A stretch of DNA of 38,755 bases from a virus: the IMG/VR virus record IMGVR_UViG_3300032607_001506, positions 1 to 38,755 of that record. One strand, written 5' to 3'. The notes beneath the pieces are model-generated. The model saw nothing but the letters and a program-made list of their open reading frames with translations, searched no databases and was not told the DNA's origin. A program made the position numbers and the translations under genes. How positions within the stretch are numbered: the first letter of the stretch is position 1; each line of letters begins with the position of its first letter. Of the stretch, positions 13,923 to 38,537 are shown in pieces.

Positions 13923-14357
13923 TTAATTTATTTTCATTAAGACATAATTTCTTTTATCCTCTACAATAAATTTTGTAAACTCTAATAACTCTGCGCTTAC
14001 TTCATTAGAAGACTGGTTGTACCCTACGCTGTTTATTACCCCCATTCTTCGTAGTTCGTGATTTATATTATTTAAGTTACTGTCTGTTATTTTTATATTT
14101 TTTATGATGTCTTTTTTAGTCTTCTTACTATACCCGAATTTAAGGTAATATGAAAGTACCTCTAGCTTCCTACCAGATAGTTTTTGTATGTCCTTAAGTA
14201 TTACGTATATTTTTATGCATCTCAGTATCTCTTCTATTCCGCTTAGTCTTTCAGTATCTATTTTGTAGTACCCCTCAACGCAAGCCTCCTTAATATCTGG
14301 GAAAAACTCTCCCACTATTTCTAAAGATTTTATTATTTCTTGCTTACTATTTTTCAT
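13923..14357 (-). CDS. Helix-turn-helix regulator
   Basis: 144 aa from MKNSKQEII (14357); an upstream in-frame ATG at 14399 is ignored because the promoter -7 box lies between the two. The middle part reads SGRKLEVLSYYLKFGYSKKT, then DSNLNNINHELRRMGVI, a pattern typical of a DNA-binding HTH. It is the first gene of the leftward operon and diverges from the rightward genes at 14479, as a transcriptional switch would. Two TTAAC repeats 11 bp apart (14360-14375) sit between its -7 box and start, so autoregulation is possible. Confidence 0.6.
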   Translation of the reverse strand: MKNSKQEIIKSLEIVGEFFPDIKEACVEGYYKIDTERLSGIEEILRCIKIYVILKDIQKLSGRKLEVLSYYLKFGYSKKTKKDIIKNIKITDSNLNNINHELRRMGVINSVGYNQSSNEVSAELLEFTKFIVEDKRNYVLMKIN

Positions 14358-14359
14358 AT

Positions 14360-14375
14360 TTAACAAAACTTTAAC
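14360..14375. repeat. TTAAC pair, 11-bp spacing
   Basis: TTAAC at 14360 and 14371, one helical turn apart, between the -7 box and the ATG of the HTH gene. Same arrangement as the clusters at 33.5-38.5 kb. Confidence 0.5.
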
Positions 14376-15001: not shown

Positions 15002-15078
15002 CTAGATGCTAGGGCAGATGGATGAACCCACCCGACTTGGACTCGGGAGATTCGCTGATTCGATTTCAGCCATCTAGA
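15002..15078 (+). tRNA. tRNA-Pro(UGG)
   Basis: Acceptor CTAGATG/CATCTAG, anticodon stem CCCGA/TCGGG with loop CTTGGAC, T arm GCTGA-TTCGATT-TCAGC. No CCA is encoded. Confidence 0.85.
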
Positions 15079-15122
15079 CAAAGAGATGTTTAGCTTTTAA
15101 CTCTATAAAAAACAAAGTACTT

Positions 15123-15194
15123 GTTGCCATCATCTAATGGTTAGGATATCAGGTTTTCATCCTGGAAATGAGAGTTCGATTCTCTCTGGCAATA
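15123..15194 (+). tRNA. tRNA-Glu(UUC)
   Basis: Acceptor GTTGCCA/TGGCAAT, anticodon loop TTTTCAT, T arm GAGAG-TTCGATT-CTCTC. Confidence 0.88.
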
Positions 15195-15199
15195 CAAAT

Positions 15200-15270
15200 T
15201 GGAGTATGGTGTAATGGTAACACAACTGTTTTTGGAGCAGTCATTTTGGGTTCGAGTCCCGATATTCCTA
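15200..15270 (+). tRNA. tRNA-Gln(UUG)
   Basis: Anticodon stem ACTGT/GCAGT, loop TTTTGGA, T loop TTCGAGT. Position 1:72 is an unpaired T:T; a weak first pair is a known preference of glutaminyl-tRNA synthetase. Confidence 0.85.
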
Positions 15271-15279
15271 CTAATACAT

Positions 15280-15353
15280 GGTGTTGTTAGCATAATGGAA
15301 TAATGTGCCTGATTGTGACTCAGGAGGATTGGGTTCGAGTCCCTGCAACACCC
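15280..15353 (+). tRNA. tRNA-His(GUG)
   Basis: Acceptor GGTGTTG/CAACACC, anticodon stem CCTGA/TCAGG with loop TTGTGAC, discriminator C as expected for His. Confidence 0.88.
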
Positions 15354-15363
15354 AAAATACTAT

Positions 15364-15394
15364 TTGTATAGTTCAATAATAATTTGTATATTTG
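15364..15394 (+). promoter_or_regulatory. Promoter of HNH gene
   Basis: TTG (15364-15366), 20 nt, TATATTTG (15387-15394). The ATG at 15399 starts 5 nt after the -7 box, so the transcript should be leaderless or nearly so. Confidence 0.65.
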
Positions 15395-15398
15395 AACT

Positions 15399-15860
15399 AT
15401 GGATAAAGTAGTCGAATTATATAAAAAAGGTTTTATAGTTTCTGAGGATGGAGTACTATATAATAAAAGAGGAGTTAAAGTAGGTAGTGTATGTCAAGGA
15501 TATCATAGAATAAGTGTAAAGATAAGTGGAAAAAATGAGTATGTTCATACTCACAGGTTACAAGCTTTTCAAAAATACGGTTATAAACTTTTTGTGGCGG
15601 GGGTTGTAGTAAGACACTTTAATGGAGACCCTTTAGATAATTCTTGGGATAATATTTTGATAGGTACTCAAACAGATAATATGCTTGATATTCCTGAGCA
15701 AGTTCGTATTAAAAAATCCCTACACGCAACATCTTTTATTAGAAAATATGATAAAGAAGAAGTAAAAAAATTTCATGCTATAAGTAAATCGTATAAAAAT
15801 ACAATGGAGAAATTCTTAATTACAAGTAAAGGAACACTGAACTTTATACTTAAAAACTAA
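15399..15860 (+). CDS. HNH homing endonuclease in tRNA array
   Basis: 153 aa. An N-terminal NUMOD-like segment (ISVKISGKNEYVHTHRLQAF, about 44-63) leads into the HNH core VRHFNGDPLDNSWDNILIGT, with the His of RHFNG and the Asn of DNSWDN visible. The C-terminal half is basic with a likely HTH for target DNA. Free-standing HNH genes of this kind are mobile and often sit in phage tRNA clusters. It has its own promoter with almost no leader and is followed by a 15-bp perfect inverted repeat (15873-15912), so it looks like an independent insert between tRNA-His and tRNA-Leu. Confidence 0.82.
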   Translation: MDKVVELYKKGFIVSEDGVLYNKRGVKVGSVCQGYHRISVKISGKNEYVHTHRLQAFQKYGYKLFVAGVVVRHFNGDPLDNSWDNILIGTQTDNMLDIPEQVRIKKSLHATSFIRKYDKEEVKKFHAISKSYKNTMEKFLITSKGTLNFILKN

Positions 15861-15872
15861 TTACTTCCTAAT

Positions 15873-15912
15873 CTGTTCACGTTTTCAAGAACGTTCATGA
15901 AAACGTGAACAG
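15873..15912. repeat. 15-bp perfect inverted repeat
   Basis: CTGTTCACGTTTTCA and TGAAAACGTGAACAG flank a 10-nt loop that itself contains the palindrome GAACGTTC. There is no T-run, so it may be an RNA stability or processing hairpin or a protein-binding site rather than an intrinsic terminator. Confidence 0.75.
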
Positions 15913-15931
15913 GTTGTAATAATGAACAGAC

Positions 15932-16006
15932 GCCTCGGTGGACAAACTGGTAAAGTCACCCGCCTTAGGAGCGGGAGTTCTGTGGGTTCGAATCCCACTT
16001 GAGGTA
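15932..16006 (+). tRNA. tRNA-Leu(UAG), short variable arm
   Basis: Acceptor GCCTCGG/TTGAGGT (three G:T pairs), anticodon stem CCCGC/GCGGG, loop CTTAGGA, T arm GTGGG-TTCGAAT-CCCAC. The variable loop is only about 6 nt (AGTTCT), although bacterial tRNA-Leu is class II with a long arm. Confidence 0.78.
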
Positions 16007-16011
16007 CTAAT

Positions 16012-16098
16012 GCCCCGATGATGAAATCGGTTAGACATGCCAGACTTAAAATCTGGTGTTCAGTAATGGACGTGCAGGTTCGATCCCTGCTCGGGGTA
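16012..16098 (+). tRNA. tRNA-Leu(UAA)
   Basis: Acceptor GCCCCGA/TCGGGGT, loop CTTAAAA, normal class II variable arm, T arm GCAGG-TTCGATC-CCTGC. The discriminator A is followed by CCA in the DNA, unlike the neighbours. Confidence 0.88.
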
Positions 16099-16102
16099 CC
16101 AC

Positions 16103-16154
16103 ATTAATTTTTTGGTTATGCATTTGTAATTAGTTGTTTATATTAGTAATATTG
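16103..16154 (+). promoter_or_regulatory. Extended phage promoter, copy B
   Basis: T-rich block ATTAATTTTTTGGTTATG, TTG (16124-16126), 20 nt, TAATATTG (16147-16154). It drives the 40-aa ORF and probably tRNA-Arg. Confidence 0.65.
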
Positions 16155-16184
16155 TATTTTAAAATAACTTTAAACAATATTATT

Positions 16185-16307
16185 ATGGCAATGATGAAAA
16201 AAGGAAAAGCAGCAGGAATGAAAAAAAAGCCTGCTAGCGCTATGTTCAAGAAAGGCGGTATGAAAAAGACTAGCGCTATGTACAAAAAAGGTGGTATGAA
16301 AAAATAA
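16185..16307 (+). CDS. 40-aa Lys/Met-rich basic repeat protein
   Basis: The sequence consists largely of two copies of a unit SAM(F/Y)KKGGMKK, residues 18-27 and 30-40. It has 15 Lys, no acidic residue and 8 Met. Such a polycation could bind nucleic acid, but this is inference. Promoter copy B lies 30 nt upstream and tRNA-Arg begins 11 nt downstream, so the two may share a transcript. Function unknown. Confidence 0.55.
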   Translation: MAMMKKGKAAGMKKKPASAMFKKGGMKKTSAMYKKGGMKK

Positions 16308-16318
16308 CCTTTAAAGAT

Positions 16319-16392
16319 TTTTCTGTGGTGTAACTGAACAACACCCTTAACTACGGATTAAGAGATTGCAGGTTTGAATCCTGCCAGAAAAA
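16319..16392 (+). tRNA. tRNA-Arg(ACG)
   Basis: Acceptor TTTTCTG/CAGAAAA, anticodon stem CTTAA/TTAAG, loop CTACGGA, T arm GCAGG-TTTGAAT-CCTGC. Confidence 0.85.
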
Positions 16393-16398
16393 CTTTTT

Positions 16399-28510: not shown

Positions 28511-28787
28511 AACAGAAGAGCCTTGGCTTTATGTAGAGGTTACAAAGCCAACAACAGAAGAGATAGAGTCTTACTACTCTAAAAACGACGAGATGAAGAC
28601 CTCGGGTTCCGCTCAAGGCGCTATAAGTGTTTTTAAAAAAGTAGAGATAATACATACCTTCAGTAATAAAAAATACCCTATAGGATCTATTTGGATGATA
28701 GGGGAAGTCCCTGGAATAAAAATTAATTTTTTTGGGGAGAAATTAACAATGATACAAAAAACAAATTTATATGCAAGAATCAATTAG
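28497..28787 (+). CDS. GroES-like co-chaperonin (candidate)
   Basis: 96 aa from MSKYKTEEPW, close to the 97 aa of E. coli GroES. It shows LYVEVTKP (first strand), a polar flexible stretch (about 22-42) where GroES has its mobile loop, YPIGSIWMI matching the GroES VGDIVIF strand, and GIKINFFGEKLTMIQKTNLY matching the GroES pattern G-V-K-x4-D/N-x2-L-x-M-x4-I-x-A. It lies immediately before, and overlaps by 17 nt, the groEL-like gene. The call rests on this alignment by eye plus the gene pair. T4 gp31 is a precedent for divergent phage co-chaperonins. Confidence 0.55.
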   Translation: MSKYKTEEPWLYVEVTKPTTEEIESYYSKNDEMKTSGSAQGAISVFKKVEIIHTFSNKKYPIGSIWMIGEVPGIKINFFGEKLTMIQKTNLYARIN

Positions 28788-30336
28788 TTCTGGGAAACCA
28801 CTTAGAGATGCAATTAGAGAAACAGTGACTACTCTATCCGCAGCAGTTAAGAGTACACTAGGACCTTCTGGTACAAATGTTGGTGTTTTATCTGAAATTA
28901 TGTTACCTGTCATAGTAAACGATGGAGTTACTGTGGCTAAAAAAGTAAAGTTCAGCGATCCGTTAGCAAGTTACATTGCACATATTTTAAAAACAGTTTC
29001 TCAGAATACAGAGAACTTAGCAGGAGACGGTACAACTACAGCAACAACATTGGCTGAGGCAATTATTCTTAACGGGATTAAAAATATTGAAGCGGGGTTT
29101 TCCCAAATTGATATTGTAAAAGGAATAAGAAAAGCCACCTTGATGGTATTGAAAGACATAGAAAAACACGTTACCTCCCTAAGCGAAAACAAAGATATAC
29201 TTTTACAAGTCGCGTCTATTTCTGCCAATAATGACTCGGAATTGGGTAAGCTAATTTCAGATGCATTTTTAAAAGTAGGTGCGGATGGATTAATAGAAGT
29301 AAAGGATAGTACTACAGACGAGAACTACGTAGAAACTGTAGATGGCATGAAATACCAAGCTGGTTACGAATCGCATATGTTTATCAATACAAACAACAGC
29401 ACTGTACTACTAGAGGACTGCTCTATTTTAATTTACGAAGGAAAACTAAAAACAATTGAGCCTATCATTGATATGCTTAAAGAAACTAAGAACACTGACT
29501 CTACGATATTAATTATCGCAGATGATTACGGACCAGAGGCGCTAAACGATCTAGCCAGTAACAAAGTTCAGTACCAATTAAAAGTATGCGCAGTAAGGTC
29601 TCCAGGATATGGCACCGTAAAGGAACAAAATCTAGAAGACTTAGCTTTAGTGACTGGGGCAACAATAATCTCAAAAAGATTAGGGTCAGACATTGAAGAC
29701 TACAATAGTTCAATGAAAGGGTTTGCTTCTGTTGTAAAAGTAACCTCTGATTCTTTCACAATTATTAAGGAAGACACAGACAGAGCTAAGATCGAGCTAA
29801 AGATAACAGAGTTAAAACAAGATTTAAAATTAGAGGTAGTCCAGACTATAAAAGCAGAGATTTCTGAAAGAATAGCAAAACTGTCTAACGGTATTGCAGT
29901 GATGTACGTAGCAGGATCTTCTCCTATAGAAATAGCAGAAAGAAAGTTTCGTATAGAGGATGCAATTAACGCCACTAGAGCAGCTATGGAAGAAGGAGTG
30001 GTGCCTGGAGGTGGTGTAACATTACTTAAAATTGCTAAGTCACTTGAGACTCCTGATTTTAAAAATAGAGGAGAGCAGATTGGATTCGAGATACTTCTTA
30101 AAGCATTAGAAGCTCCGATCGAGACAATATGTACAAACGCAGGAGCTAATGGAGCAGTAGTTATAAAAGAAGTACTCTCAGGAGACTTTAATTATGGATA
30201 CGATGCCAAGCTTGACGAGTACAAAGATATGGTAACTGCAGGAATACTGGATCCCACAAAAGTAACAAAAGCCGCGTTGGTAAATGCATCTTCTGTATCT
30301 CAAATGATACTTAGCATGGACCACGTATTATATTAA
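28771..30336 (+). CDS. groEL: Phage-encoded GroEL chaperonin
   Basis: 521 aa. LGPSGTNV (30-37), NDGVTVAK (50-57), the ATP motif GDGTTTAT (85-92), the apical ILIIADDYGPEAL and VRSPGYG regions, and IEDAINATRAAMEEGVVPGGG near 400 match GroEL throughout, including the catalytic Asp of IEDAINATR. It lacks the C-terminal GGM repeat tail and ends at MDHVLY, so it is about 27 residues shorter than E. coli GroEL. It should form a folding chamber for phage proteins, presumably with the upstream GroES-like partner. A strong terminator follows. Confidence 0.93.
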   Translation: MQESISSGKPLRDAIRETVTTLSAAVKSTLGPSGTNVGVLSEIMLPVIVNDGVTVAKKVKFSDPLASYIAHILKTVSQNTENLAGDGTTTATTLAEAIILNGIKNIEAGFSQIDIVKGIRKATLMVLKDIEKHVTSLSENKDILLQVASISANNDSELGKLISDAFLKVGADGLIEVKDSTTDENYVETVDGMKYQAGYESHMFINTNNSTVLLEDCSILIYEGKLKTIEPIIDMLKETKNTDSTILIIADDYGPEALNDLASNKVQYQLKVCAVRSPGYGTVKEQNLEDLALVTGATIISKRLGSDIEDYNSSMKGFASVVKVTSDSFTIIKEDTDRAKIELKITELKQDLKLEVVQTIKAEISERIAKLSNGIAVMYVAGSSPIEIAERKFRIEDAINATRAAMEEGVVPGGGVTLLKIAKSLETPDFKNRGEQIGFEILLKALEAPIETICTNAGANGAVVIKEVLSGDFNYGYDAKLDEYKDMVTAGILDPTKVTKAALVNASSVSQMILSMDHVLY

Positions 30337-33557: not shown

Positions 33558-33619
33558 TTAACATTTTATTTGGTAAATTTTAACAATACATTAACATTTA
33601 TTGCCTTGTAATTGTTAAC
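33558..33619. repeat. TTAAC cluster upstream of promoter
   Basis: TTAAC at 33558, 33580 and 33591 (22 and 11 bp apart) and at 33615, out of phase, inside the promoter spacer. Confidence 0.55.
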
Positions 33620-33635
33620 ATATAGACTACTTTTG
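33606..33635 (+). promoter_or_regulatory. Promoter of right module
   Basis: TTG (33606-33608), 19 nt, TACTTTTG (33628-33635). TTAAC repeats lie on both sides and within the spacer. Confidence 0.7.
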
Positions 33636-33668
33636 TAGTGTTATGTGGAAGGGCTCGATACCCAAAAT

Positions 33669-33695
33669 TTAACAAAATTTTAACAAAATCTTAAC
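33669..33695. repeat. Three TTAAC repeats, 11-bp period
   Basis: TTAAC at 33669, 33680 and 33691, within the leader between the promoter and the ATG at 33718. Confidence 0.65.
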
Positions 33696-33717
33696 ATTTA
33701 TTTAAAAACAATTCACT

Positions 33718-33966
33718 ATGGACAATTCAACTACAAATTTTGAAGCGGTTAACAAGGTTATAATGTTTGGGTTCAACTATCCGAGCGGTTTTATAGCGCT
33801 TGTTTGGGGTGCAAATACTCATATGGCAAAGCACTTGCAAGGTAAGTTTAATATGAATTACGAGCGCTTTGGTTCAAACGGCGTATTCAATAACTTTTAC
33901 GTTAATTTAGACGGTACTAACCAAGCTATTTTGGTTAGTTGGATACTTGCAAATTACAAAGGATAA
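33718..33966 (+). CDS. Hypothetical small protein
   Basis: 82 aa, aromatic-rich (FGFNYPSGFIALVWG) with an HLQGKF centre and C-terminal LVSWILANY. First gene of the right module, with promoter and TTAAC-repeat leader, and followed by its own terminator, so it forms a one-gene unit. Unknown. Confidence 0.6.
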   Translation: MDNSTTNFEAVNKVIMFGFNYPSGFIALVWGANTHMAKHLQGKFNMNYERFGSNGVFNNFYVNLDGTNQAILVSWILANYKG

Positions 33967-33977
33967 TAAAAAACTTT

Positions 33978-34001
33978 AAGCCCTCAAAATGGGGGCTTTT
34001 T
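33978..34001 (+). terminator. Intrinsic terminator
   Basis: AAGCCC / GGGCTT hairpin plus T-run. Confidence 0.75.
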
Positions 34002-34021
34002 AATCTACTTACATACATACT

Positions 34022-34330
34022 ATGGGAACATTAATTAATATTTTAGAAAATGCAAACGTTAACGACTTATTAAGAGCGGTTAACAGTACAAAGGAATATC
34101 TTTATTTTGATATATCTGTTTTTAATGTGGGTGCGTCGATATTTATTAAATGTACTGATACATTTAAAGAACCAAGCGCGCGCACATGGAACGGCTACGA
34201 CTTTATAATTGAAAACGATAGTACAACTAATTACTATATTTTAGGGGCCTTAAAAACTATCCTAAATGATATGACAGTAACCAAAACAGATAGACAAATT
34301 GAACGTATTAAATTAATCTTAAAAAAATAA
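34022..34330 (+). CDS. Hypothetical protein
   Basis: 102 aa; mixed alpha/beta, starts MGTLINILENAN, ends in a basic helix. Unknown. Three nt from the next ORF. Confidence 0.55.
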   Translation: MGTLINILENANVNDLLRAVNSTKEYLYFDISVFNVGASIFIKCTDTFKEPSARTWNGYDFIIENDSTTNYYILGALKTILNDMTVTKTDRQIERIKLILKK

Positions 34331-34333
34331 ATT

Positions 34334-34489
34334 ATGAAACTACCGAACAAAATTAAAAACAATTTTTGGGTGCTAAATTGGGTTCCTGTTACTATGCTTA
34401 GCATCGCTATTTTAGCCGCTGTAATTATTTTAAATGGGGCCTTAATTCTAATTGATATACTAACTACTTCGCAAATTTGCGGACTATAA
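34334..34489 (+). CDS. Small single-TM membrane protein
   Basis: 51 aa: a basic Asn-rich start (MKLPNKIKNNFW) and a hydrophobic segment at about 20-43 (MLSIAILAAVIILNGALILI). Between two coupled genes. Unknown. Confidence 0.55.
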   Translation: MKLPNKIKNNFWVLNWVPVTMLSIAILAAVIILNGALILIDILTTSQICGL

Positions 34490-34499
34490 AAAAACCACT

Positions 34500-35000
34500 A
34501 TGATACATTTTGTAAACTGTAAGGACTTAAACGAATTAAAAACAGAATACCGCAAACTATGCAAAGTGCTGCACCCTGACAAAGGGGGCACACACGCGGG
34601 TTTTATTGAAATGCAAGCGCAATTCGATACCTTAAGTAAGAAACTAAAATTTAACACGGGATTCGAAGCGGATAAGGATTTTAACGCAAACAAATTTTAC
34701 GATTTGGTACAAAAATTTGATGGATTGCTAGATATTGATATTAGTTTTGTTGGTTCCTTTATTTGGTTAACCGATAGCGAAGGATCCAACGGCGCTATGT
34801 ACCGACAAATTGAAACGATCAAAGGTATAAAGTTTGAAGGATTGAACGCGCCACGCTGGGCAAATAAGAAAAAAAGTTGGTACTTTAGCCCTGAGGACTA
34901 CAAACAAAAATCAGGCTCTAATAAGTCGCTAGACGAACTTAAAAGTACCTATGGTAACAATACCTTCCAAACTAAAAAAAGCGTCTCTATAAGCGCTTAA
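34500..35000 (+). CDS. J-domain protein
   Basis: 166 aa. Residues 9-46 (DLNELKTEYRKLCKVLHPDKG) carry the HPD tripeptide of DnaJ-type J-domains. The C-terminal part contains FIWLTDSEGS and RWANKKKSWYFSPEDY, a W/Y-rich second domain found in small J-domain proteins of mobile elements. It could recruit host DnaK to phage or replication complexes. No phage DnaK is in the window. Confidence 0.75.
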   Translation: MIHFVNCKDLNELKTEYRKLCKVLHPDKGGTHAGFIEMQAQFDTLSKKLKFNTGFEADKDFNANKFYDLVQKFDGLLDIDISFVGSFIWLTDSEGSNGAMYRQIETIKGIKFEGLNAPRWANKKKSWYFSPEDYKQKSGSNKSLDELKSTYGNNTFQTKKSVSISA

Positions 35001-35055
35001 ATTAACTAACTTCAAGCCCTCGCAAGGGGGCTAATTAATTCTAAATTTTACAGTT

Positions 35056-35430
35056 ATGAAAATCCAATTTTATCACGAATGTTTTGAGTATAACGATAAT
35101 TTTATTTCGTTAAATAGTACTAGTATCTTGTTGGATGCTGAACGCATAGTTTGCCCAATTTGTAATGGGAACGGATCCCATTTTAGAAACGATTTAGACG
35201 AAAACGATTTGATCAGATCATTTAACGAAGACGGCGACAATGACGGTTTTGAGGCGTATCAAAACGGATCCTTTGATCAAAAATGTACAGAGTGCGAAGG
35301 GCGAAATATAGTTGACGTCCCTATCTGGAATAAAGCGCCAAAATGGATATCTGAAGCAATTCAAGAGTATAACGAAGACAAGCGTCTCGATGCTGAAATA
35401 TACAGGGCTGAATGCGGCTACCAATGGTAA
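35056..35430 (+). CDS. Zinc-finger (DnaJ-type CxxCxGxG) protein
   Basis: 124 aa. CPICNGNG (36-43) and CTECEG (76-81) are two C-x2-C-x-G halves like one zinc site of the DnaJ Cys-rich domain, separated by an acidic insert. It lies directly after the J-domain gene, so the two may work as a split DnaJ-like pair. Function inferred. Confidence 0.6.
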   Translation: MKIQFYHECFEYNDNFISLNSTSILLDAERIVCPICNGNGSHFRNDLDENDLIRSFNEDGDNDGFEAYQNGSFDQKCTECEGRNIVDVPIWNKAPKWISEAIQEYNEDKRLDAEIYRAECGYQW

Positions 35431-35447
35431 ATTAACTAATATTAATT

Positions 35448-35467
35448 AGGGGGCTTAAAAACCCCCT
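35448..35467. terminator. GC hairpin at gene boundary
   Basis: AGGGGG / CCCCCT hairpin, no clear T-run. A similar hairpin AGCCC/GGGCT is at 35015-35032. Weak terminators or processing sites. Confidence 0.4.
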
Positions 35468-35482
35468 TAAAATCCTAAAAAA

Positions 35483-35659
35483 ATGATCTATACAGTAACT
35501 TACAACCACGAAGTTTCCAAGCCCTCAAGCTATGATATTCTAATGATACAAAAAAAGTGGTCCTTAGATATAGAAGCCGACACGCTAGAAGCAGCCGAGC
35601 AAATTTTAAAAACAGAGCACAATAAAAATCCTTTTTACTTTAATTTAATCCAAAAATAA
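35483..35659 (+). CDS. Hypothetical small protein
   Basis: 58 aa (MIYTVTYNHEVSKPSSYD). Its TAA overlaps the next ATG (TAATG), showing translational coupling. Unknown. Confidence 0.6.
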   Translation: MIYTVTYNHEVSKPSSYDILMIQKKWSLDIEADTLEAAEQILKTEHNKNPFYFNLIQK

Positions 35660-35964
35660 TGAGAGCACTATCTGACAACCAACAAAAATTGTATACTAGT
35701 TTAGAGTTATACATGACAATGACACAGCCTATGGACTTCGATAGATTAAAGGCCTTGTGTGACTTCAAAACCTTTGATGCTACCTTTGGCGCCTTACTTC
35801 ACAAAGGATGCATTAAAAGACACAATGAAGGCGACGGTAACAACACCTATGTACTAACCAAAAGAACCATTACAAAAAATAAAGTTACCACCGATAAAGG
35901 AACTACTTTTACCACTATAGAAAAAATAGAAGGTTTAGAAGGGGTAAAGATAACTAAATTTTAA
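35659..35964 (+). CDS. Small winged-helix-like protein
   Basis: 101 aa. MRALSDNQQKLYTSLELYM...FDRLKALCDFKTFDATFGALLHKGCI resembles a winged-helix layout (three helices then a beta wing), suggesting DNA binding. The Thr/Lys-rich C-terminus is unassigned. Three TTAAC repeats begin within its stop codon. Confidence 0.55.
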   Translation: MRALSDNQQKLYTSLELYMTMTQPMDFDRLKALCDFKTFDATFGALLHKGCIKRHNEGDGNNTYVLTKRTITKNKVTTDKGTTFTTIEKIEGLEGVKITKF

Positions 35965-35987
35965 CATTTCATTAACAAAACTTTAAC
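35961..35987. repeat. Three TTAAC repeats, 11-bp period
   Basis: TTAAC at 35961, 35972 and 35983, overlapping the stop codon and lying just before a terminator. Confidence 0.65.
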
Positions 35988-35992
35988 ATTTT

Positions 35993-36017
35993 AAACCTCC
36001 TTAATTGGGGGTTTTTT
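35993..36017 (+). terminator. Intrinsic terminator
   Basis: AAACCTCC / GGGGGTTT with T-run. Confidence 0.75.
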
Positions 36018-36067
36018 TATATCTTTACATAGGCAGACGGGCGAAGTGTAACACCAACACTGGAAGA

Positions 36068-36157
36068 GTAGACTCCGACACGGCCAAACTTTAAATGTTA
36101 AAGTTTTGTTAAATCTTTGTTAAAGGAATTTTCACTTTGTTGTAGGACGGAGTCTAC
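36068..36157. repeat. 10-bp inverted repeat enclosing iterons
   Basis: GTAGACTCCG (36068-36077) and CGGAGTCTAC (36148-36157), perfect, enclosing three GTTAA repeats. Confidence 0.65.
36097..36123. repeat. Three GTTAA repeats, 11-bp period
   Basis: GTTAA at 36097, 36108 and 36119 (inverse orientation of TTAAC), at exactly 11-bp steps. Confidence 0.7.
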
Positions 36158-36242
36158 CCTATGCGCACCGAAAAAATGCGAACCCTTGGGCGGCATCACA
36201 CCACCAACAGTACAAAGGTACGAATATACAAGAGATAAAACC

Positions 36243-36306
36243 GTTAAACAAACGTTAAGATTTTGTTAAAGTTTAGTGTATTAAACAAGTGTTAATCTTT
36301 AGTTAA
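36243..36306. repeat. Five GTTAA repeats in two phased sets
   Basis: GTTAA at 36243, 36254, 36265 (11-bp steps) and at 36291, 36302 (11-bp step). Confidence 0.7.
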
Positions 36307-36500
36307 AGTAGTTTAAATATTAGGAATATCCAATAATTCTGGAGGATCATTTTAAGGGGTATTTAAGCAATTTAGTACCCTATATGGATACGTAGTATTG
36401 ATTCTTTGAGTTCGTCGATTACGCTCAAAATACCAGTGTTTTCAGGCCTTCACAGAGGGGCATTTTTGGGGCAAATGTTAAAATTATATAAAACTACATT

Positions 36501-36516
36501 TTAACATTAATTTAAC
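36501..36516. repeat. TTAAC pair, 11-bp spacing
   Basis: TTAAC at 36501 and 36512, immediately upstream of the promoter at 36528; a single GTTAA is at 36477. Confidence 0.6.
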
Positions 36517-36527
36517 TTTTATGGTAT

Positions 36528-36557
36528 TTGAGTTTCATTTAAAGTTATCTATATTTG
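36528..36557 (+). promoter_or_regulatory. Promoter
   Basis: TTG (36528-36530), 19 nt, TATATTTG (36550-36557). It lies inside the extended reading frame and fixes the start of the next gene at 36593. Confidence 0.7.
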
Positions 36558-36592
36558 TGACGGCAATAGTGCCACATTCTAAATTACTTTAT

Positions 36593-36916
36593 ATGAAATA
36601 TCCTATTGACCAATTTGAGGTTTTTACGCAAACAGTAAAACAAATAAATAGCTATATAGATATAGCAAACATTAACCCGTGCGCCCTACACTATTTAGTG
36701 TACCAACAATTTGCAAGCGGGCAAACACACAATGCATTATATTGGATTAGTGGCGCAGTTAAAAAGAAGCACCAATTTAGCGAGTTAGAACTTACTAAAG
36801 CGGTTAAATTAGTTAACAGTGATTTTGATTTTCTACTTTATCCAAAAGGGTGCGACGATAGCCACATAGAGACGGCGGGCAAAAGAGTTATAAAAGAATT
36901 ATACACTAATATTTAA
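36593..36916 (+). CDS. Hypothetical protein
   Basis: 107 aa from MKYPIDQFEVF. The longer frame from 36521 is rejected because a consensus promoter lies within it. Helical, with ALYWISGAVKKKHQ and a basic C-terminus. First gene of the last rightward operon; unknown. Confidence 0.6.
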   Translation: MKYPIDQFEVFTQTVKQINSYIDIANINPCALHYLVYQQFASGQTHNALYWISGAVKKKHQFSELELTKAVKLVNSDFDFLLYPKGCDDSHIETAGKRVIKELYTNI

Positions 36917-36926
36917 ATAAATTTAT

Positions 36927-37205
36927 ATGATAAATCAAAGTAGAGAATACAAAAAGCAAATTGAAGCTATCACAGTTAACACAGACTTAAGTTTAAGAGA
37001 GATAGAGAGACAAGCCGACATCGATATTAGAGTACTAAGACGAAAGTTTAACCAGTCTTTAAAACAAGAATCTGTTACTACAGAGGAGGGAATTGTCCGT
37101 AATTACGAAATGGGTTTAACCACATTAGAGGAGTGTTTAACACAAAGAATTGAGACCTTACAAAGTGTATTGAAAGGTATTTATTGTAACGAACTAATTA
37201 AATAA
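36927..37205 (+). CDS. HTH-like hypothetical protein
   Basis: 92 aa. SLREIERQADIDIRVLRRKFNQ (about 22-43) reads like a helix-turn-helix (S-x-R-E-I...D-x-R-x-L-x-R). Possible small DNA-binding protein. Confidence 0.5.
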   Translation: MINQSREYKKQIEAITVNTDLSLREIERQADIDIRVLRRKFNQSLKQESVTTEEGIVRNYEMGLTTLEECLTQRIETLQSVLKGIYCNELIK

Positions 37206-37211
37206 ATTTAT

Positions 37212-37457
37212 ATGATTAACACACTATCACTTAAGGCGCTCTTATTGGATACAATAACGCACCTAAAAACGGGGGAACACCTAGCGCCTAATTTTAAGGC
37301 TACAAAAAAAGAATTGTGTATACAGTTAGGGCAAAAGCAAAATATCAGTTCTAAGCAACTGTTACACGGCATCGGGTTAATATATAGAGACAACGACAAA
37401 GAAGCCGAATTTTGGGCGGTAATAGACAAATTTAAGGCTGAAAAGTTCCTAGCCTAA
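37212..37457 (+). CDS. Hypothetical protein
   Basis: 81 aa, basic, with KKELCIQLGQKQNISSKQLL as a possible HTH segment. Followed by an intrinsic terminator. Unknown. Confidence 0.55.
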   Translation: MINTLSLKALLLDTITHLKTGEHLAPNFKATKKELCIQLGQKQNISSKQLLHGIGLIYRDNDKEAEFWAVIDKFKAEKFLA

Positions 37458-37467
37458 CAATAACAAC

Positions 37468-37490
37468 AAACCCCTATAACGGGGGTTTTT
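37468..37490 (+). terminator. Intrinsic terminator
   Basis: AAACCCC / GGGGTTT with T-run. Confidence 0.78.
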
Positions 37491-37502
37491 AAACAACTTT
37501 AA

Positions 37503-37613
37503 ATGAAAACACTAAAAAGATTATTCGTAAAATTCGACACGGCATTTTGGAGCCGACACAAAAAAATTAGTTTGTTTCTATTCGGGGACAATTGGACAAA
37601 AGTAAATTATTAA
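37503..37613 (+). CDS. 36-aa small basic protein
   Basis: MKTLKRLFVKFDTAFWSR to DNWTKVNY; basic and aromatic. Begins just after the terminator and 3 nt before the next ORF. Unknown. Confidence 0.4.
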   Translation: MKTLKRLFVKFDTAFWSRHKKISLFLFGDNWTKVNY

Positions 37614-37616
37614 GAT

Positions 37617-37745
37617 ATGAGACTACAAATATTTAGGGCTAAAAAGCTATACGGTAACACCTTCTTAATGATGCATTACACAAAGTTATTAGGGTTCTAT
37701 ATCTTAACGGGATTTTCAATTTTTACTTCACAACTTAAACAATAA
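37617..37745 (+). CDS. 42-aa small protein
   Basis: MRLQIFRAKKLYGNTF followed by a moderately hydrophobic stretch (LLGFYILTGFSIFTS), possibly membrane-associated. Unknown. Confidence 0.4.
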   Translation: MRLQIFRAKKLYGNTFLMMHYTKLLGFYILTGFSIFTSQLKQ

Positions 37746-37749
37746 CATT

Positions 37750-38163
37750 ATGTATTTATCTGACTATTTAGAAGCGGGACAAAGTAAAATTTTTAAGAGG
37801 TACGGGGTTTTCTTTGCTTTCAGTACTGAACAACTTAACGAGGGGTTAAAAATCAATTTAGATAAAGGCATCACTTTAGCGGGCGAAAAAACAACTAAGC
37901 TACCTTTAGGCATGTTTGCACCAAGCAAGCACAGTGAAGCCGTAAAAAGAGAAATGGACGCCAATTTTGAGCAAGCCGTAAAACAAGATATAAAAGAGAA
38001 CGGCAAAGAAAAAATAATCGTACGTGAACTCTACAACTATGAATGTTTCTATACGGGGGACATAGATGACACACTAAGAAAAGTAAGTGTATACGGTTAT
38101 ACATTAGAGGACGTACAACAAGCCTATAGAAAGGAATACCCTAACTATGAAAAACACAACTAG
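37750..38163 (+). CDS. DUF7659-like protein
   Basis: 137 aa. YGVFFAFSTEQLNEG near the start and ELYNYECFYTGDIDDTLR near the end are hallmarks of a small protein family (annotated DUF7659) common in Bacteroidetes phages and plasmids, of unknown role. Confidence 0.65.
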   Translation: MYLSDYLEAGQSKIFKRYGVFFAFSTEQLNEGLKINLDKGITLAGEKTTKLPLGMFAPSKHSEAVKREMDANFEQAVKQDIKENGKEKIIVRELYNYECFYTGDIDDTLRKVSVYGYTLEDVQQAYRKEYPNYEKHN

Positions 38164-38167
38164 AGAC

Positions 38168-38350
38168 ATGAAAACAAAATATGTAATAAAAGATTGGGCG
38201 GGAAATAGAATGTTTCCTAGTAAAGAGTTTAAAACCTTTGAAGCGGGGCGGGACTATATCACAGAGAACGTACCAAATGAAAAGTTTGACCAAACACAAA
38301 ACCCAAACGACGATAACCACCAAGAATATTATGTTATCGTTATAGACTAG
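38168..38350 (+). CDS. Small conserved-type hypothetical protein
   Basis: 60 aa from MKTKYVIKDWAGNRMF; an ATG at 38147 would overlap the preceding gene. The Y-V-I-x-D-W-A-G-N start and FEAGRDYI are seen in small Bacteroidetes mobile-element proteins. Unknown. Confidence 0.55.
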   Translation: MKTKYVIKDWAGNRMFPSKEFKTFEAGRDYITENVPNEKFDQTQNPNDDNHQEYYVIVID

Positions 38351-38387
38351 AGAGTAAAGGAATAAGAAAACAAAACAAAGTAATTTA

Positions 38388-38419
38388 AAAACCCTGTCAT
38401 TAAGTTGGTAGGGTTTTTT
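38388..38419 (+). terminator. Intrinsic terminator
   Basis: AAAACCCT / AGGGTTTT with a 14-nt loop and T-run. Confidence 0.75.
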
Positions 38420-38521
38420 GTTGCGGTATTCTCATCAAATTAGTATATCTGTTGCATTCTGTTTGGCTCTACCCTAGAGAGAAACAACAAAACACTGAGA
38501 ATATGACAATAAAGGACTCCC

Positions 38522-38537
38522 TTAACAAAACTTTAAC
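38522..38537. repeat. TTAAC pair, 11-bp spacing
   Basis: TTAAC at 38522 and 38533. Confidence 0.5.

Follow-up and report, generated by a model that had tools for sequence, protein, structure and literature searches.

The virus record IMGVR_UViG_3300032607_001506 of IMG/VR, a stretch of 38,755 nucleotides (38.8 kb) referred to here in its full length as the window, contains arrays of the pentamer TTAAC (GTTAA on the opposite strand) repeated at 11-bp steps, and these arrays are upstream promoter elements. Their helical phasing relative to the promoter's -7 box, their presence at rprX-like promoters of host bacteria and the lack of a corresponding regulator gene in the phage sequences examined were, like the arrays themselves, computed from the sequences. 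We consider it likely that the promoters of the right module of this phage use boxes of a host RprY-type response regulator as activation sites, whereby we infer both the binding and its positive sign. A phage of Flavobacteria would in this way probably tie its right-hand genes to the regulatory protein of a stress-type sensor/regulator pair of the host.

The pattern TTAAC-N6-TTAAC was found 13 times in the window compared to a mean of 0.39 and a maximum of 3 in 100 dinucleotide-preserving shuffles, none of which reached 13. The reversed control pattern gave no match in the window. Among the same-strand TTAAC distances up to 60 bp, 11 bp is the sole enriched spacing in the window with 13 pairs; all others occur at most three times except 22 bp (5 pairs), which in part represents triplets counted again. 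The density in the window is about 335 pairs per Mb, whereas most of the 13 genomes compared have about 1-15 per Mb; the reduced genome of Uzinura is the exception, owing to one tandem array. The phasing claimed by the original prediction is therefore more frequent than in shuffled sequence and in host genomes. Likewise, its seven cluster coordinates are all correct, and the arrays adjoin promoters, a terminator and an inverted repeat as it had described (Table 1). In the first cluster, 33580/33591 form the only exact 11-bp pair; the TTAAC at 33558 is located two steps upstream with no TTAAC in between. The repeats had been described as running throughout the right module (33.5-38.5 kb); this region holds 12 of the 13 pairs, but two pairs, at 36291-36306 on the minus strand and at 14360-14375, the latter being the only one outside the module, had been overlooked.

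In Flavobacteria, the main sigma factor has TAnnTTTG as its -7 box, spanning positions -12 to -5 (PMC9723704). Arrays C1, C3 and C7 on the plus strand and C5 on the minus strand are located 37, 37, 38 and 27 bp, respectively, ahead of such boxes (TACTTTTG, TATCTTTA, TATATTTG and TACCTTTG). Thus, four promoters (5 pairs) exhibit the canonical distance, compared to 0.41 expected for random positions.

The large terminase of the window is 37% identical to that of phi17:2 and phi4:1, two Cellulophaga phages assigned to Lightbulbvirus, and its DnaJ-like protein shows 48% identity to their counterpart. The window and phi17:2 furthermore share the gene order of structural genes, tRNA cluster, recombination genes and small-gene module. 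Because gene order and protein matches point to phi17:2, a 145-kb Lightbulbvirus with the host Cellulophaga baltica, the window is probably part of a larger genome related to phi17:2 and phi4:1. A megablast of the window against phages and a search of IMG/VR for relatives of the terminase and the DnaJ-like protein gave nothing useful. As in the window, the arrays of phi17:2 lie on the right: 12 pairs at 11 bp were detected, all in the last 45 kb (100-145 kb), where they spread over about 32 kb, and none between 0 and 100 kb. Ten of these 12 have a TAnnTTTG/A box at the canonical distance, whereas random positions would give 0.37. Unlike the window arrays, which are mostly TTAAC, they are mostly in GTTAA orientation. 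Read in gene direction, nine pairs are GTTAA-N6-GTTAA followed by TAnnTTTG or TAnnTTTA at 27-29 nt (8) or 37 nt (1), and in the single 37-nt case a terminator is situated between array and -7 box. The tenth boxed pair is of the TTAAC type with its -7 box at 26. The gap between array and box is mostly 28.

A scan for an array, a free gap of 15-45 nt and TAnnTTTG in 199 Flavobacteriaceae genomes and in IMG/VR contigs gave matches in 189 of these genomes, far exceeding the reversed-pattern control. Counted from the second TTAAC, the host distances peak at 27 (55) and 37 (18) among the 150 matches listed; among those listed for IMG/VR the peaks are 26-27 and 37-38. For the GTTAA orientation, the gaps peak at 26-27 and 36-37 in viruses (among the matches listed) and at 28 in hosts, with a second host group at 36-42. 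These peaks are one helical turn apart and therefore fit the predicted contact with the polymerase. There is good support for the view of the original prediction that the repeats mark one helix face for a protein. Minor viral peaks at 32 and 44 resemble coding sequence of related contigs and were set aside. A general feature of host promoters was rejected as well: the raw pair density of hosts equals background, and only the form combining pair and promoter exceeds the reversed control. The TTG at -33 is nearly missing from host promoters with a near array (0 of 14 for TTAAC at 26-27 and 1 of 18 for GTTAA, the chance rate being 8%). Among the viral matches listed it occurs in 8 of 43 and 1 of 14 near-array promoters and is kept in 21 of 41 far-array promoters. 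As near-array promoters mostly lack this element, activation would fit, with the array replacing the -33 contact.

Three host triplets adjoin genes for an outer-membrane protein and a histidine kinase. The regulator beside them, read in two of the three cases, comprises receiver and Trans_reg_C domains with RprY as best NCBIfam match. So as not to select on arrays, we used the histidine kinase as homology query in 60 genomes. Exact arrays were present upstream of 25 of 30 kinase genes of Flavobacteriaceae. This applies to all nine paralogue kinases, a set that contains the query and is hence partly selected, and to 16 of 21 RprX-like kinases (about 525 aa), which were found by homology only. 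In the latter, the array usually lies 53-60 bp before the start codon and the -7 box follows it after a gap of 28 (13 of 15) or 27 (2 of 15), the same layout as in phi17:2. Given about 5 pairs per Mb in Flavobacterium, a pair would fall into 450 bp by chance with a probability of about 0.2%. The regulators adjoining the RprX-like kinases belong to the OmpR/PhoB family and are ranked by NCBIfam as RprY, then PhoB and RpaB. Further arrays precede the htrA/dapF intergenic region and genes for a TlpA-like lipoprotein, an outer-membrane barrel and a small secreted protein (names by sequence reading), so that the host genes behind arrays appear to share an envelope theme. As to a Pho box proper, no phosphate genes were recognised among the host loci read, although no systematic search for such genes was made. 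With the host regulator as tblastn query, no OmpR/PhoB-type protein was found in the window or in phi17:2; the regulator would therefore be that of the host. In Porphyromonas gingivalis, RprY binds to its target promoters, and rprY itself is a listed target (PMC6032018).

We propose that an OmpR/PhoB-type response regulator with a winged helix would bind each TTAAC as a half-site. Two half-sites spaced by one helical turn would seat a tandem dimer, and triplets would seat more. The regulator is most likely a host RprY-type protein, because identical arrays precede the RprX/RprY-like host operons. The right-module promoters would copy the host layout of array, fixed gap and TAnnTTTG, and the host regulator, bound on the polymerase-facing side, would raise rather than repress transcription of the right-module genes. 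The phage might benefit in that a host factor, present beforehand or activated upon infection, turns these genes on. Arrays C2, C4, C0 and C8, which have no promoter, may serve as additional sites for regulation or titration.

Several observations weigh against this proposal. Of the nine window clusters, five lack their own -7 box where one would be expected, and the host histograms count orthologous promoters repeatedly. The arrays are very common in viruses, which could also be explained by an element intrinsic to the polymerase. The NCBIfam RprY score of the host regulators is 278-282 bits compared to a cut-off of 370, and we therefore call them RprY-like and not confirmed RprY. Furthermore, the exact array is absent from the RprX homologues of Bacteroides, Prevotella and Pedobacter and was not seen outside Flavobacteriales. 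Finally, RprY of P. gingivalis is reported as a repressor, e.g. of nqrA (PMC6032018).

The original prediction had named a cooperative repressor, with small helix-turn-helix (HTH) proteins of the phage as candidates. A DNA-binding protein encoded by the phage itself, acting on the right module as repressor or activator and sharing the preference of the host regulator, would agree with arrays that are, like operators, largely confined to one module, and several small unassigned proteins are encoded there. However, no recognisable OmpR/PhoB-type protein is present in either phage, the small proteins tested matched no HTH or other family, and identical arrays with the same -7 distance occur at host kinase/regulator operons. 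We regard a phage-borne protein as unlikely, and less likely than the host response regulator.

Alternatively it might be that the arrays are read by the alpha C-terminal domain of the polymerase, similar to the sigma-70 UP element of E. coli, which lies upstream of the promoter and is of A-tract composition. Their location at about -41 to -60 would suit, as would their helical phasing, and in phages of other bacteria TTAAC-N6-TTAAC stands right next to TTGACA/TATAAT promoters; 109 stretches in IMG/VR, from phages of ordinary sigma-70 hosts, have it directly before TTGACA. The arrays differ from the UP element in lacking the A-tract makeup, and none was found in the 17 regions of 68-700 bp examined upstream of host rRNA. 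In addition, the host arrays gather at envelope genes and kinase/regulator operons, and only few arrays per genome are linked to a promoter. A UP-type element is thus quite unlikely, although the stretches before TTGACA may point to an element of wider use.

The arrays could also serve mainly as decoys that titrate the host regulator and blunt the stress response, as the promoterless arrays and the many sites packed in little DNA might suggest. This is very unlikely in view of the precise promoter positioning of most arrays, nearly all in phi17:2. An initiator protein, the other candidate of the original prediction, would require iterons of a replication origin; in spite of the dense cluster with inverted repeats at 35.95-36.52 kb this is hardly credible, since the arrays are scattered over 5 kb in the window and about 32 kb in phi17:2 and most precede a promoter. 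Chance in AT-rich DNA, where TTAAC by itself is frequent (132 copies on both strands of the window), is ruled out by the shuffles and the spacing spectrum.

Tandem boxes of OmpR/PhoB-family regulators also include the Firmicutes PhoP box and the cyanobacterial HLR1. PhoP of M. tuberculosis recognizes 7-bp direct repeats with a 4-bp spacer (PMC4832192), and half-sites are known for KdpE (PMC3264566). The arrays resemble such boxes as direct repeats about 11 bp apart beside a promoter, their own regulator being putative. RprXY of Bacteroidota is the nearest named family for the regulators beside the host arrays, and we found no consensus box for it in the literature examined. That phages exploit a host response regulator is already known from cyanophages, e.g. 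S-PM2d, which use boxes of the host PhoB (PhoBR) at their promoters (PMC10976474). There, too, phage genes are under a host OmpR/PhoB-family regulator, and the motif PyTTAAPyPyT/A resembles TTAAC. In contrast to the phosphate control of particular genes in cyanobacteria, an RprY-like regulator would act in Flavobacteria on most promoters of a module. This use and the box for RprY-like regulators of Flavobacteria appear to be new; no prior statement of either was found in a literature search restricted to open papers.

Should activation by a host RprY-type regulator prove true, a two-component system of Flavobacteria that is conserved but so far poorly defined would be given a concrete, testable DNA box, and phages would place most promoters of a module, and not just a few genes of metabolism, under the control of a host response regulator. 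GTTAA-N6-GTTAA-N28-TAnnTTTG, or TTAAC-N6-TTAAC at 27/37, would be a simple signature for detecting such promoters in Bacteroidota viruses. It is possible, if somewhat doubtful, that phages of Flavobacteria and other Bacteroidota broadly copy the self-regulated RprX/RprY-like host promoter for their early/middle promoters. An envelope-type two-component system of the host, possibly triggered by infection itself, would then time the whole module, and the same box would mark an undescribed RprY-type regulon of the host.

Table 1. Arrays, promoter elements and neighbouring features in the window
Feature	Position	Strand	Remarks
Array C0	14360-14375	+	TTAAC pair; just ahead of start of leftward gene 13923-14357, near divergent gene start
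Array C1	33580-33595	+	TTAAC pair at 11 bp; more TTAACs at 33558 and 33615; second TTAAC of pair 37 bp before -7
Bacteroidota-type promoter	33606-33635	+	TTG (-33), TACTTTTG (-7 at 33628-33635)
Array C2	33669-33695	+	TTAAC triplet between promoter 33606-33635 and ATG 33718; no -7 box at usual distance
Array C3	35961-35987	+	TTAAC triplet at end of gene 35659-35964
Intrinsic terminator	35993-36014	+	Between array C3 and its -7 box
Near-consensus -7 box	36020-36027	+	TATCTTTA; 37 bp from last TTAAC of C3
Inverted repeat	36065-36160		AGAGTAGACTCCG/CGGAGTCTACCCT, 12/13 complementary; arms 36065-36077/36148-36160, around array C4
Array C4	36097-36123	-	TTAAC triplet; no clear -7 box
-7 box of leftward promoter	36213-36220	-	TACCTTTG; 27 bp from array C5
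Array C5	36243-36269	-	TTAAC triplet belonging to leftward promoter
Array C6	36291-36306	-	Additional TTAAC pair behind C5
Array C7	36501-36516	+	TTAAC pair; -7 box 38 bp on
Promoter	36527-36557	+	TTTG (-33), TATATTTG (-7 at 36550-36557); ahead of gene 36593-36916
Array C8	38522-38537	+	TTAAC pair within possible 22-codon reading frame; no nearby -7 box

The region 36028-36500 of the window comprises about 470 bp with no clear gene, with converging promoters at 36020 (+) and 36220 (-), a 13-bp inverted repeat and three arrays. A non-coding RNA is possibly encoded here; Rfam gave no family for this stretch or its inverted repeat.

Some related repeats were observed in other sequences. In a conserved Flavobacteriaceae promoter, e.g. 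G072:C1:1476171-1476234, GTTAA-N6-GTTAA precedes an imperfect palindrome (AGTACTATG...CATAATACC), and the -7 box lies at gap 40; a second regulator probably has its site here. The IMG/VR contig L169 carries TTAAC-N6-TTAAC-N6-GTTAA-N6-GTTAA between divergent Bacteroidota promoters three times over. Ahead of the promoter of other kinase genes (L605, L610), GTTAAC repeats step by 10 bp and not by 11 bp. Many arrays abutting TTGACA per contig, at TTGACA/TATAAT promoters, were seen in L208, L205, L145, L167 and L430-L506 of IMG/VR. Prevotella ruminicola (G009) has 11-bp tandem TTAACTTCCCT repeats, and TTAAC tandem arrays occur in further Prevotellaceae (L019, L049, L053, L074); these tandem repeats of rumen Prevotellaceae are apparently a separate repeat element.

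Apart from the arrays, 18 tRNA genes are clustered at 15002-18860 of the window, and phi17:2 has such a cluster likewise. From reading the sequence, the phage apparently also carries a GroEL-like gene of its own (28771-30336).

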